Positions 47,449-51,732 of a stretch of 64,000 nucleotides of DNA are shown here, one piece after another. The notes under the pieces were generated by a model. It saw only the letters and a list, made by a program, of their open reading frames with translations, was not told where the DNA came from and ran no database searches. Position 1 is the stretch's first letter. Every line of letters begins with the position of its first letter. The stretch comes from Chitinophagaceae bacterium PMP191F (GTDB lineage: Bacteria > Bacteroidota > Bacteroidia > Chitinophagales > Chitinophagaceae): contig LGYU01000012.1 of assembly GCA_001302245.1 (NCBI GenBank), positions 1 to 64,000 on the forward strand, in the 5' to 3' direction. A program made the position numbers and the translations under genes.

Positions 47449-47690
47449 ACAGGCAAAGTTTCCGGTTACAAGTTACAGGATTCACAAGGTTTCCGTTCTT
47501 ACTGATTTAAATGGAAATTTAACCTGCAGACAATGTTCTGCAATTTTCCGCTATTGCTGTGCATTGCAGGCCGGTTCTGCATATGCTATTCCGGGATAAA
47601 CACATATCAATTATCCGCCACGTCTTGCCCTTCATCCTGCAAATTTTTCTATTCCCCTATTCTCGCTTATTTTCGCCAAAATTTTGCTAC

Positions 47691-48902
47691 ATGAATCTCC
47701 ACGAATACCAGGCTAAAGAATTACTGAAAAAGTATAATGTACCCGTACAGGAAGGCATCCCGGTAGATAGAGCCGATGCTGCAGAAGAAGCATACAAAAA
47801 TCTGAAAGTACAGTTTGGCAACAATTTCGCAGTGGTAAAGGCGCAAATTCATGCCGGAGGTCGCGGTAAAGGAAAGATACAGGGCACTGAACAACGCGGT
47901 GTGGCTGTTGGTAAAAGTGCAGAAGAGATCAAGCAGATCGCCTCTAACATTCTTGGCGGAACACTGGTAACCATCCAGACCGGTGCTGCCGGTAAAATGG
48001 TAAATAAAGTACTGGTTGCGCAGGACGTATACTATCCTGGTGCTAACCCTGTAAAAGAATTTTACCTGTCTATCCTGCTGGATCGTACAAAAGGACAGAA
48101 TGTGATCATGTACAGCACCGAAGGTGGTATGGACATTGAAGAAGTAGCACACAATACGCCCGAGAAGATCTTTAAAGAGTGGGTACATCCCGGTGGTGGC
48201 TTACAGGGTTTCCAGGCACGTAAAATTGCCTTTAACCTGGGTCTGAAAGGCGAAGCATTTAAAAACTGCGTAAAATTTGTTACCAATTTATACAACGCAT
48301 ACGTAGGACTGGATTGCAGCATGCTGGAAATTAACCCGCTGTTTAAAACATCCGACGAGAAGATACTGGCTGTTGACTGTAAAATGAACCTGGACGATAA
48401 CTCACTGATGCGTCATCCTGACCTGGAAGCAATGCGCGATATCAGTGAGGAAGATCCTACAGAAGTAGAAGCCGGTAAATTTAACCTGAACTTTGTAAAA
48501 CTGGACGGTAACGTGGGTTGTATGGTAAACGGTGCTGGTCTGGCCATGGCCACTATGGATATGATCCAGTTAAGTGGTGGTGAGCCAGCTAACTTCCTGG
48601 ACGTAGGTGGTACTGCCAATGCCCAGACAGTAGAAGCTGGTTTCCGCATCATCCTGAAAGATCCTAAAGTAAAAGCGATCCTGATCAATATCTTTGGAGG
48701 TATTGTACGTTGCGATCGTGTTGCACAAGGTGTAATTGACGCTTACAAATCTATCGGCACCATCAACGTACCTATCATTGTACGTTTACAGGGTACTAAT
48801 GCAGAAGAAGCTAAAAAACTGATTGAAGAAAGTGGCCTGAAAGTACAGTCTGCTATCCTGCTCAGCGAAGCTGCTGCACTGGTAAACAAAGCCGTAGCTT
48901 AA
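47691..48902 (+). CDS. sucC: Succinyl-CoA ligase (ADP-forming) subunit beta
   Basis: The 403-residue TCA-cycle subunit starts with the hallmark MNLHEYQAKELLKKY and has the ATP-grasp region (HAGGRGKGK, about 54-62) and the C-terminal ligase domain with INIFGGIVRCDRVAQGVI. I start at 47691, as the longer frame is leader translation. The alpha subunit is not adjacent, so sucCD is split. The 242 bases before it contain no gene. A terminator follows. Confidence 0.97.
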   Translation: MNLHEYQAKELLKKYNVPVQEGIPVDRADAAEEAYKNLKVQFGNNFAVVKAQIHAGGRGKGKIQGTEQRGVAVGKSAEEIKQIASNILGGTLVTIQTGAAGKMVNKVLVAQDVYYPGANPVKEFYLSILLDRTKGQNVIMYSTEGGMDIEEVAHNTPEKIFKEWVHPGGGLQGFQARKIAFNLGLKGEAFKNCVKFVTNLYNAYVGLDCSMLEINPLFKTSDEKILAVDCKMNLDDNSLMRHPDLEAMRDISEEDPTEVEAGKFNLNFVKLDGNVGCMVNGAGLAMATMDMIQLSGGEPANFLDVGGTANAQTVEAGFRIILKDPKVKAILINIFGGIVRCDRVAQGVIDAYKSIGTINVPIIVRLQGTNAEEAKKLIEESGLKVQSAILLSEAAALVNKAVA

Positions 48903-49743: not shown

Positions 49744-50532
49744 ATGTGGAACCCTGAAAAATTTTACGATAAAGTATACACCTGGATCCTTACGTACGGG
49801 CCCAGAATCATTATCGCCATCCTGGTTTTGGTAATTGGTGAATGGATCATAAGATTACTAAACAAATGGTTAAGAAAAATACTTTCCAGCAAAGACTTTG
49901 ATCCATCCCTGGAAAGTTTTTTTCAAAGCCTGTTTGGCATCATATTGCAGGTAATATTGTTCCTGCTGCTGATGCAGATTCTTGGCATGCAGATGACTTT
50001 ATTTGCATCGGTCATTGCAGCATTTGGTGTGGCTGCCGGCCTGGCATTATCGGGCACCTTGCAAAACTTTGCCAGCGGTATACTGATCATGATATTGAAA
50101 CCATATCGTGTAGGTGATAATATTGTAACGCAGGGAATGACAGGAAAGGTTACAGCCATCCAGCTTTTTTATACCTACGTGGTAACGTTTGACAATCGTA
50201 CTGTCATTGTTCCCAATAGCAAGTTATCCAATGAAATTATCCTTAACCTCAGCAGGGAAGGCAAAAGGCGCATGGACATTGAGGTGAAAGTGCCTTACGC
50301 TATTGATTTTGATGCTGTCAAAAACATCGCACTGGATGCTATAAAAACAACGCAAAATTTTCTGCAGGAGCCACCCAATCGTATTGGTGTTTCTGTACTG
50401 GAACCAGATGGCTATAAAATACTGATAGAAGTATGGACCAATGAACATGGCTTTGAAGATGTGCGGCTGGCTTTCCAGGAAAAGCTACTCAAAGACATTA
50501 AATCTTCCGGCATTAAACTGCCAGGTATGTAA
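49744..50532 (+). CDS. Small-conductance mechanosensitive channel (MscS family)
   Basis: The 262-residue protein has three N-terminal transmembrane helices. The pore-lining third one is GVAAGLALSGTLQNFASGI, with the alternating Gly/Ala packing of MscS, followed by ILKPYRVGDNI and a cytoplasmic beta/alpha vestibule. It opens under membrane tension to release osmolytes. Length is close to E. coli MscS. Confidence 0.95.
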   Translation: MWNPEKFYDKVYTWILTYGPRIIIAILVLVIGEWIIRLLNKWLRKILSSKDFDPSLESFFQSLFGIILQVILFLLLMQILGMQMTLFASVIAAFGVAAGLALSGTLQNFASGILIMILKPYRVGDNIVTQGMTGKVTAIQLFYTYVVTFDNRTVIVPNSKLSNEIILNLSREGKRRMDIEVKVPYAIDFDAVKNIALDAIKTTQNFLQEPPNRIGVSVLEPDGYKILIEVWTNEHGFEDVRLAFQEKLLKDIKSSGIKLPGM

Positions 50533-50544
50533 CTACATAAAAAA

Positions 50545-50575
50545 GTCCCGGGTGTCGGCCCGGGACAATTTTTTA
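50545..50575. terminator. Bidirectional Rho-independent terminator
   Basis: The perfect 8-bp stem GTCCCGGG / CCCGGGAC (6-base loop) has AATTTTTTT on the plus side and, on the minus strand, ends in TTTTTTATG. It can terminate mscS transcripts and also a minus-strand RNA entering from about 50755. Confidence 0.85.
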
Positions 50576-50755
50576 CTGCGGACGATCTCTTTGTCATCAC
50601 AGTGGTCTTCGACGGATTTCACAGATATTGGAGTCTGTTTTTTTGGTCTTCACAGGTTTCGGATCTTAACGGACTCTGGACATTGGATTGGTTTTTCTAG
50701 GACTTTCTTTATTCTTCGCCTTAACAATACAAAGATGCATCCGCGAGGGCCCCTA
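50576..50755 (-). ncRNA. Candidate structured small RNA
   Basis: The minus strand has a -7 box (TATATTTG, 50759-50766) and a terminator at 50545-50575, with no convincing reading frame between. The RNA ends can pair: TCCGC/GCGGA (50740-50744 with 50578-50582) and TCTTTGT with ACAAAGA (50588-50594 with 50729-50735), separated by a small internal loop. Inside, GAGTC/GACTC encloses CTGT/ACAG. A rod of about 180 bases with paired ends would fit a 6S-like RNA, but I cannot verify homology. The remaining gap up to 51117 shows no other gene. Confidence 0.35.
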
Positions 50756-50758
50756 TTC

Positions 50759-50766
50759 CAAATATA
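50759..50766 (-). promoter_or_regulatory. -7 element for the candidate small RNA
   Basis: On the minus strand TATATTTG matches TAnnTTTG. No TTG is found at the usual distance upstream. Confidence 0.35.
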
Positions 50767-51117
50767 ACGTTCTCTAATACATGATGTTATTAGTATAGCA
50801 CTATATGCACTACTACAAAACCATTACCGATAGTAGTTCCAGCAAGGCCTATAGTAAATTTACCATTCAAATTCAAAGCATTAATTATCAATTATTTACA
50901 AACAATAAGTGTAAAAAAGAAAATTATAATGTTATTTACATGGATCCATAACCGCAGATTTTTATCATGCATTTGTATCCTGTATTATGGGAATATAGCT
51001 CGCTTATCAAGCCGCAAGTGAAACATGATAAATACAATGCTAAAAAGTAATATCTGGCATGGATTTTTCGTTAGTACCACACATTATTCAAGCCGGCAAC
51101 ATTAAAAACCTTGCTTT

Positions 51118-51201
51118 ATGAAAAACGCTACAACCTTCTTTTTTGGATTTATAGCCCTCGGTTACATTATCATTTACAGCCTCATAGCCCTGATCAGTTA
51201 A
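51118..51201 (+). CDS. Possible 27-residue single-span membrane peptide
   Basis: The ATG at 51118 opens a 27-codon frame: MKNATT, then an almost entirely hydrophobic stretch (FFFGFIALGYIIIYSLIALI), ending with Ser and TAA. The one charged residue is at the N-terminus and the hydrophobic length suits one membrane span. It precedes the GNAT gene by 45 bases. No Shine-Dalgarno sequence is seen, as is common in this phylum. Chance occurrence cannot be excluded. Confidence 0.4.
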   Translation: MKNATTFFFGFIALGYIIIYSLIALIS

Positions 51202-51222
51202 AAACAGCTTACCATTACCGGA

Positions 51223-51246
51223 GCTGCAAAGATTTATCTTTGCAGC
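51223..51246. promoter_or_regulatory. Perfect inverted repeat abutting the GNAT start codon, with a -7 box inside
   Basis: GCTGCAAAGA (51223-51232) and TCTTTGCAGC (51237-51246) are exact complements around TTTA, ending one base before the ATG at 51247. The second arm contains TATCTTTG (51235-51242), a -7 box. Transcription from it would begin at about the start codon (leaderless mRNA). Confidence 0.5.
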
Positions 51247-51732
51247 ATGAATGAGATCATAATCAGGCCTATAAGCTCTACTGATAATCCTGCCATTGCT
51301 GTCATTATCCGCAATACACTAACAGAGTTCAACGCCAATCATCCCGGCACTGTTTACTACGATAAAAGCACAGACGCACTTTACGAATTATTCCAGGTAC
51401 CAAACAGCATGTATAACGTGGCTGAAGTAAATGGGGTACTTGCAGGCGGGGCGGGCATTTTCCCCTCCGATGGTCTGCCGGAAGATACCTGCGAGCTGGT
51501 TAAAATGTACCTGGTACCGGAAGCACGCGGACTGGGCCTGGGGAAACTATTGATAGAGAAAGCGATGGAATTTGCACGTACAGCGGGCTATAAAAAAATT
51601 TACCTGGAAACAATGCCTGAACTACGACAGGCCGTGCGCGTGTATGAAAAATTTGGCTTCCGCTATCTGGATGGCCCTGTAGGAAACACAGGTCATTTTG
51701 GTTGCGATATCTGGATGCTGAAAGATCTGTAA
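51247..51732 (+). CDS. GNAT-family N-acetyltransferase
   Basis: The 161-residue acetyl-CoA-dependent transferase has the acetyl-CoA-binding motif A ARGLGLGKLLIEKA (about 95-108), then YKKIYLETMPELRQAVRVYEKFGF (in parts: YKKIYLETMP, AVRVYEKFGF). It is cytoplasmic; the substrate is unknown. Just upstream lies a perfect inverted repeat that touches its start codon. Confidence 0.9.
   Translation: MNEIIIRPISSTDNPAIAVIIRNTLTEFNANHPGTVYYDKSTDALYELFQVPNSMYNVAEVNGVLAGGAGIFPSDGLPEDTCELVKMYLVPEARGLGLGKLLIEKAMEFARTAGYKKIYLETMPELRQAVRVYEKFGFRYLDGPVGNTGHFGCDIWMLKDL

Follow-up and report, generated by a model that had tools for sequence, protein, structure and literature searches.

The minus strand of the window, the 64-kb stretch of DNA analyzed here, holds what its sequence features support as a previously unrecognized RNA gene with its own promoter and intrinsic terminator. 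It would be transcribed into a short noncoding RNA of about 185 nt built around an array of degenerate short motifs (Table 1), and this RNA very probably belongs to a genuine noncoding RNA family of paralogous repeat-array RNAs. Searches located arrays of this kind at some 50 loci; these span 20 or more genera, all of the family Chitinophagaceae (Niastella, Longitalea, Pseudoflavitalea and others). With a probability of roughly 0.5, we favor the reading that these paralogues act as decoys for an RNA-binding protein, resembling CsrB and RsmZ in action without being members of that group.

Table 1. Features of the window and further array copies in the same genome
Feature	Position	Strand or class	Basis and remarks
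sucC-like gene	47559..48902	+	Pfam ATP-grasp_2 and Ligase_CoA, synteny; outer conserved neighbor in class A
mscS-like channel gene	49744..50532	+	Pfam MS_channel_2nd; convergent neighbor of the array
Predicted transcript, ~185 nt	50539..50724	-	+1 near 50724 (+/-2); end at the terminator T-run
Intrinsic terminator hairpin	50545..50566	both	T-runs on both strands
Array of 12 degenerate motifs ([AG]TCC / A[AG]ACC), one of them GAAAAACC	50563..50703	-	array caller, blastn
Putative -7 promoter element CATCTTTG, then TATTG	50730..50737	-	relaxed form of TAnnTTTG
Putative -33 promoter element TATATTTGG	50758..50766	-	contains the TATATTTG box of the initial annotation; TTTG spacing fits a Bacteroidetes promoter
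GNAT acetyltransferase gene	51247..51732	+	Pfam Acetyltransf_1, synteny; divergent neighbor, conserved in class A
Copy L229	contig 5, about 268.3-268.5 kb	class B	16 motifs
Copy L232	contig 65, about 242.9 kb	class C	7 motifs, below threshold
Copy L233	contig 8, about 24.5 kb	class D	9 motifs

A stretch was called an array if it had eight or more motifs, [AG]TCC or A[AG]ACC, separated by no more than 32 nt; this rule was set after the first members had been seen. The window array, with 12 motifs, falls under this rule and is the sole one called on either strand of the 64 kb; arrays appeared in 0 of 100 Markov copies of the window and nowhere in the background (46 loci, 157 kb). As the family criterion describes, a promoter with the relaxed box CATCTTTG precedes it and a terminator follows it on the same strand. 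The array is short, less G-poor than the remaining arrays (C 0.24 and G 0.18, against array medians of 0.27 and 0.13), and lies among the more foldable ones (z -0.57, MFE/nt -0.133). The array element of locus L053 (genome G355) matches it by blastn at 50675-50706 on the minus strand (E 4.1e-4), and its homology to the family is suggested by this value of about 4e-4 together with its position. The initial annotation had placed the RNA in a gene-free gap of 585 bases, a length that holds for 50533-51117 if a 27-residue ORF at 51118 is counted; the distance to the GNAT start is 714 bases. This ORF (51118-51201, plus strand) encodes a short hydrophobic peptide and lies between the array promoter and the GNAT gene. 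The ATP-grasp_2/Ligase_CoA gene, which we take to be sucC, probably has its true start inside the ORF as called.

Promoters of Bacteroidetes follow the consensus TTTG-N19..21-TAnnTTTG, and the TTTG of the -33 element begins 29 nt ahead of that of the -7 box, a spacing that fits. The window's CATCTTTG-TATTG corresponds to TACTTTTG-TATTG in the paralogous copies L229 and L233 of the same genome, and ATCTTTGTATTG immediately precedes the arrays in L009, L054, L080 and L082. A promoter of the form TTATTTGG..AAAGGGG..GATGCATCTTTGTAT is common to the window and other genomes (blastn match to window 50764-50705). At L051, L052 and L055 the match consists of this shared promoter only, and these loci were rejected as arrays; there the promoter stands ahead of very small membrane-protein-like ORFs, and G303 and G286 each have two matches to it with small ORFs. 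A scan for sigma-70-type promoters gave 3 sites versus 3.2 in shuffles, no excess. The +1 was predicted by analogy to the class-B units described below, in which a conserved RNA start lies about 6 nt past the TTTG. The terminator could serve mscS as well as the array RNA.

The initial annotation had read the same stretch as a candidate rod-shaped RNA with paired ends, 6S-like or another structured regulator. Several of the elements it named are present: the minus-strand box TATATTTGG, which fits as a -33 element, the strong bidirectional terminator with a T-run on either strand, and the complementary segments GCGGA (50740-50744) with TCCGC (50578-50582) and TCTTTGT (50729-50735) with ACAAAGA (50588-50594). 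The pairing of the ends, by contrast, is not predicted: the MFE structure of 50766-50545 folds both 5' arms locally, away from the 3' arms. In a 208-nt version, the end pairs reach probabilities of 0.045-0.069 and forcing them yields -47.6 kcal/mol versus -48.5 unforced, so that the rod is near in energy yet not preferred. By rough estimate, a 7-base match close to both ends is not rare (~5%), and the fold z-score of 50766-50545, which includes the terminator, is -1.69, with 8 of 200 shuffles equally good. The rod also lies outside the predicted transcript, because part of its 5' arm falls within the -7 box at 50730-50737; it would require promoter sequence, and it is more likely that TATATTTG is the -33 box, CATCTTTG the -7 box and the proposed 5' arms promoter DNA. 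No relatives were found in which these ends can be aligned, and the consensus fold of 10 class-A relatives shows no rod.

In the Rfam search, RF00013 and RF01685 had no match in the window at gathering, and the array region had none to any family. When the limit was relaxed to E 10, the region 50500-51250 matched just two families, one of snoRNAs and one of microRNAs, both scoring well short of their cut-offs, and no 6S family. RF00013 had no match in the whole genome, and five control genomes gave matches; RF01685 also had none, and none in the control genomes either, so that this search does not show absence. A 6S RNA would suit the length near 185 nt and the lack of an Rfam 6S match elsewhere in the genome (for RF01685, a search without positive control). 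The long, centrally bulged rod closed by paired ends that marks 6S RNA and 6S-Flavo is nevertheless missing from the predicted transcript, as is any Rfam match, and the likeness is one of length only. This structured 6S-like reading is strongly disfavored and almost certainly wrong: the minus-strand RNA gene is retained as sequence-supported, and the rod shape and 6S kinship are not.

Relatives were sought by blastn, with match counts that vary with the E-value cut-off, and by pattern. The window element matched 44 of 394 family genomes at E<=0.05, the window included, and among the loci fetched from the first searches the caller flagged only L053 and L009 besides the window. L054 holds a looser array by eye that is not an array by the caller; L053, L054 and L009 show motif runs (GAAAAACC, ATCCAA, GTCCAA) ending in a terminator-like hairpin. 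With L053 as query, 24 of the 394 genomes (13 of 101 genera) matched at E<=1e-3, its own genome and the window included, and the caller found an array at 22 of these 24 loci, the others being L083 and L085. A joined query of 791 nt from five elements matched 65 of the 394 genomes and 26 of the 101 genera, the five source genomes included; the window's genome fell below the cut-off in this search. An array is present at 29 of the 30 loci fetched with it: 20 new ones, five from which the query itself was built and four already matched by L053. L083, L085 and L178, matched by one of these two queries, carry no array and were set aside.

Among the 63 stretches that a pattern scan of a named genome collection yielded, 56 are background and 7 are arrays. 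The arrays lie in Niastella vici, N. caeni, a Niastella sp., Longitalea luteola, Pseudoflavitalea sp. G-6-1-2 and two bins titled Chitinophagaceae (UBA3961 and BIN25); N. vici, L. luteola and Pseudoflavitalea belong to the Chitinophagaceae. Three caller-flagged stretches of the background (L120, L125 and L148) were dropped for their differing composition. Four of the seven are identical to arrays in genomes of the window's family (L065 and N. vici, L064 and L. luteola, L068 and N. caeni, and L009 and UBA3961), which assigns the window to the Chitinophagaceae. Removal of repeats left 51 distinct arrays (46 loci, counting the window), which come from 20 numbered genera and two further named records. 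L193, L219, L223, L229, L232 and L233 were added after these 51.

A search of the order (218 genomes, family members included) gave matches in eight genomes outside the family, where each of the 10 viewed loci proved to be either an isolated match or a simple run of the heptamer (GTCCRAA)n; L217, which the caller accepts with a count of 18 motifs, was rejected as a perfect heptamer run. Short tandem runs of GTCCRAA, the same 7-mer that recurs in the arrays, occur in other families of the order (L217, L220 in imperfect form, L221, L224, L225, L230 and L231). So far, in the sampled genomes, repeat-array RNAs are confined to the Chitinophagaceae. Viral contigs gave 0 matches to the array pattern, and the few matches that blastn gave to plasmids and phages were weak (E 0.06 to 0.8) and lay outside the array. 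An Rfam search of 13 loci, including the three other copies in the window's genome, returned nothing at gathering.

The arrays share a motif vocabulary and largely lack structure. In 22 representatives (5392 nt), GAAAAACC was observed 58 times against 2.4 expected (in 21 of the 22) and TCCAA 111 times against 30.1 (in all 22), counts biased upward by the fact that the arrays were found partly through such motifs. The spacing between CC dinucleotides is mostly 5-12 nt with a peak at 5-8, whereas the null peaks at 2, although the gap rule of the caller trims long spacings. Folding is weak, with z-scores at or above 0 in 41 of the 51 arrays. In the consensus fold of the 10 class-A RNAs (nine of genus g103 and one Niastella bin), pairing is limited to the terminator region and to one hairpin of five pairs toward the end of the array. 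Changes on both sides occur in four pairs, two in the small array hairpin and two in the terminator hairpin, which sits at the same place in these relatives and shows C-G / U-A in 5 of 10 and G-C / A-U in 1 of 10. The arrays are largely unpaired, but not wholly unstructured, because two of the four compensatory pairs sit in the hairpin inside the array.

Promoters and terminators follow the orientation of the arrays. A -7 box precedes 28 of the 51 arrays, compared with 2 of 51 on the opposite strand; it was sought within 160 nt before the array as TAnnTTTG, relaxed YATCTTTG or TTTCTTTG, the relaxed forms having been picked after members were seen. A terminator follows 32 of the 51 arrays against 1 of 51 on the opposite strand, the one called at L172 falling inside an ORF. 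For both counts, 52 loci were entered; L054, not an array by the caller, was excluded, and L073, which holds an array, was left out. Class-A arrays of g103 carry CGATCTTTA or CGATATTTA in place of the -7 box, and class-B and class-C arrays mostly have no terminator call. Fully open frames occur in 12 of the 51 arrays on their own strand and in 37 on the other. A coding role was rejected: gap lengths in alignment A1 are multiples of three in only 32 of 189 cases (gaps taken sequence by sequence), and the open frames are therefore attributed to a scarcity of stop codons.

The arrays also recur beside the same genes, whose protein names were taken from Pfam. In class A, the array lies between sucC and the GNAT gene (window, G391, G196 and G355, by tblastn), the position that the window array occupies; an acidic ORF and mscS intervene between sucC and the array in the window, and another ORF does so in G355. 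The GNAT gene also adjoins the arrays L063, L064, L068, L070 and L141. With GNAT as the anchor, 120 genomes matched and 30 loci were fetched, only four of which show a genuine array within the flanks retrieved (window, L184, L185 and L193); L194, L197 and L205, with six motifs, were rejected (L194 and L205 viewed, L197 by place). The class A position is thus conserved patchily. With MscS as the anchor, no related locus was confirmed. Among 29 mscS loci of relatives (L021-L049), the array was absent from the fetched flanks and neither GNAT nor sucC was found beside mscS, which makes mscS merely a local neighbor.

In class B, the array lies between a CBS-domain gene and a Peripla_BP_2 gene, in units of 102-341 nt whose RNA start, GAAGUUGAUUGAUA, is complementary to UAUCARUCAACUUC at their opposite end. 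In 14 of 14 units, this conserved start is preceded by a perfect TAnnTTTG only a few bases away; the count omits two rows reading the same units on the other strand. In 13 aligned units, 98.3% of the cells of the end pairing can pair, compared with 18-46% in slid versions; 8 of its 14 pairs are invariant and one shows a compensatory change, and 45 of 500 shuffles do as well, so that covariation support for it is weak. A hairpin near CCCTCCTGC..GCAGGAGG, without a T-run, lies between the class-B array and the Peripla_BP_2 gene at L071, L136, L157, L169 and L229 and is possibly a regulatory element of that gene. In class C, a short-chain dehydrogenase gene and an MFS transporter gene flank the array (L232, L163 and L177; at L173 and L009 the dehydrogenase only), and a conserved stretch near AAATTTGTACCTATTGATGRCC was seen by eye after the arrays of L163, L173, L177, L009 (looser) and L232. 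Class D places the array between peptidase M24 and rhodanese/thioredoxin genes (L233 and L082), and a further set of five loci lies behind a 4HBT thioesterase gene. The window's genome holds at least four arrays, three of them outside the window. Each of these three is flanked by genes that flank arrays in other genera and has a TAnnTTTG box, which TATTG follows in L229 and L233 as in the window.

A typical member of the family would thus consist of its own promoter, an intrinsic terminator and, between them, a largely single-stranded array of RUCCRA and GAAAAACC copies. A binding platform is suggested because the RNA is free-standing and largely unpaired, carries many motif copies and has paralogues that otherwise differ in sequence. 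The motif copies may bind a sequence-specific RNA-binding protein, the multi-site decoy would titrate it off its mRNA targets, and the paralogues would feed one shared pool, as CsrB/CsrC or RsmX/Y/Z do; the motif number, which ranges from 9 to 39 within class A, is as expected if only the total number of sites counts. An RRM protein is one candidate partner: RRM_1 was found at seven places in the window's genome, five of them strong, and nothing links them to the arrays. RbpB of Bacteroides is reported to prefer other sequences (PMC11697453, PMC12119571), a point against the decoy reading.

Other modes of action were weighed against titration. The arrays might be sRNAs that base-pair at multiple sites, their repeated UCC/ACC pairing with GGA- or GGU-containing mRNAs, for example near start codons. 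Repeated unpaired seeds within a free-standing RNA suit this idea, and the paralogous FopS sRNAs of Bacteroides are described, in the part of the report available, as repressing PUL operons in that way (PMC11697453); the motifs are, however, short and degenerate, and their surroundings differ among paralogues, so that we regard base pairing as unlikely. A role in loading Rho, as rut-like sites serving as decoys or terminators, is improbable. The arrays' median composition (C 0.27, G 0.13) and weak folding do match the general description of rut sites as C-rich, G-poor and weakly structured, as given in the available parts of PMC9160355 and PMC6407284. Under the RUT rule as published (a C/G ratio above 1 and a C every 11-13 nt within 78 nt), however, none of the 78-nt stretches of the window RNA qualifies, and the share of array stretches that pass, 15% on average, is near the window background (13% on the plus and 6% on the minus strand) and below the 24% of shuffled arrays, although 25 of the 51 arrays pass somewhere. 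The YC chains of the window array are ordinary, with 6.9% of the window's 100-nt stretches scoring as well, and specific flanks such as GAAAAACC would be needless for Rho.

Local action as a cis-acting leader or spacer, with the arrays forming 5' UTRs of neighboring genes, is likewise improbable, and slightly more so. It would account for the five loci in which the array reaches an ORF start (L160, L164, L170, L179 and L172), which fit a leader better than a decoy, and for class-B arrays, which precede the Peripla_BP_2 gene mostly without a terminator call. Against it stand the terminator-like sites after 32 of 51 arrays (that of L172 inside its ORF) and the orientation of the window array, which points away from GNAT and toward the mscS 3' end, with no downstream gene to lead. 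At L160, L164, L170 and L179, which belong to genera g127 and g123, the array abuts a small ORF at its start; the two forms of these ORFs that were tested have no Pfam match, and the same motifs seem to serve there as a leader. It is very unlikely that the arrays are low-complexity or minisatellite DNA without function: simple (GTCCRAA)n runs exist in other families of the order (L217, L221, L224, L225, L230 and L231), but the arrays are not periodic tandem repeats, and promoters, terminators, orientation and gene neighbors are kept across genera.

The decoy reading draws on a known precedent. CsrB, CsrC and RsmX, Y and Z are decoy RNAs of CsrA/RsmA, with the GGA motif mostly in hairpin loops. 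The arrays resemble them as short noncoding RNAs with their own promoter and terminator, here predicted from sequence, with many copies of a short motif and with several paralogues per genome that vary in motif number; they differ in that the motif is RUCCRA / GAAAAACC rather than GGA in hairpin loops, in being largely unpaired and in having no Rfam match. Rut sites share the excess of C over G and the weak structure, whereas their spacing rule does not describe the window RNA and the arrays have specific motif flanks. The FopS/GibS sRNAs of Bacteroides, ligands of RbpB, are likewise paralogous multicopy sRNAs of the same phylum; by their description in the available part of the report, FopS members are set apart by one shared 41-nt motif, in contrast to a short-repeat array in another family of the phylum (PMC11697453). 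The TAACTGA repeats of MacGregor (2015) involve a different heptamer in direct repeats, which in the main genome lie mostly just upstream of start codons, and a free-standing promoter-to-terminator RNA is not described in the part of that paper available (PMC4679880). No description of arrays like those reported here was found in the literature by title or abstract opening, and the available part of the Flavobacterium psychrophilum transcriptome paper mentions none (PMC9723704). From their sequence, the arrays look like an undescribed family of bacterial small RNAs.

To our knowledge, few regulatory RNAs are known in free-living Bacteroidetes, and we know of no RNA decoys such as Csr/Rsm in the phylum. 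Structure-based RNA discovery would overlook array RNAs because they are defined by repeated single-stranded motifs and not by a fold. A family with at least four copies in one genome, positions common to genera and no Rfam match offers a concrete handle, and the array RNA itself is a ready bait for the protein that reads it. More tentatively, and with less confidence than in the decoy reading itself, the arrays may form the RNA side of an as yet undescribed system of global post-transcriptional control in the Chitinophagaceae, in which several largely unstructured, 'beads-on-a-string' paralogues per genome would jointly sequester one sequence-specific RNA-binding protein reading RUCCRA / GAAAAACC. 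If true, this would be an equivalent of Csr/Rsm built from unrelated parts.
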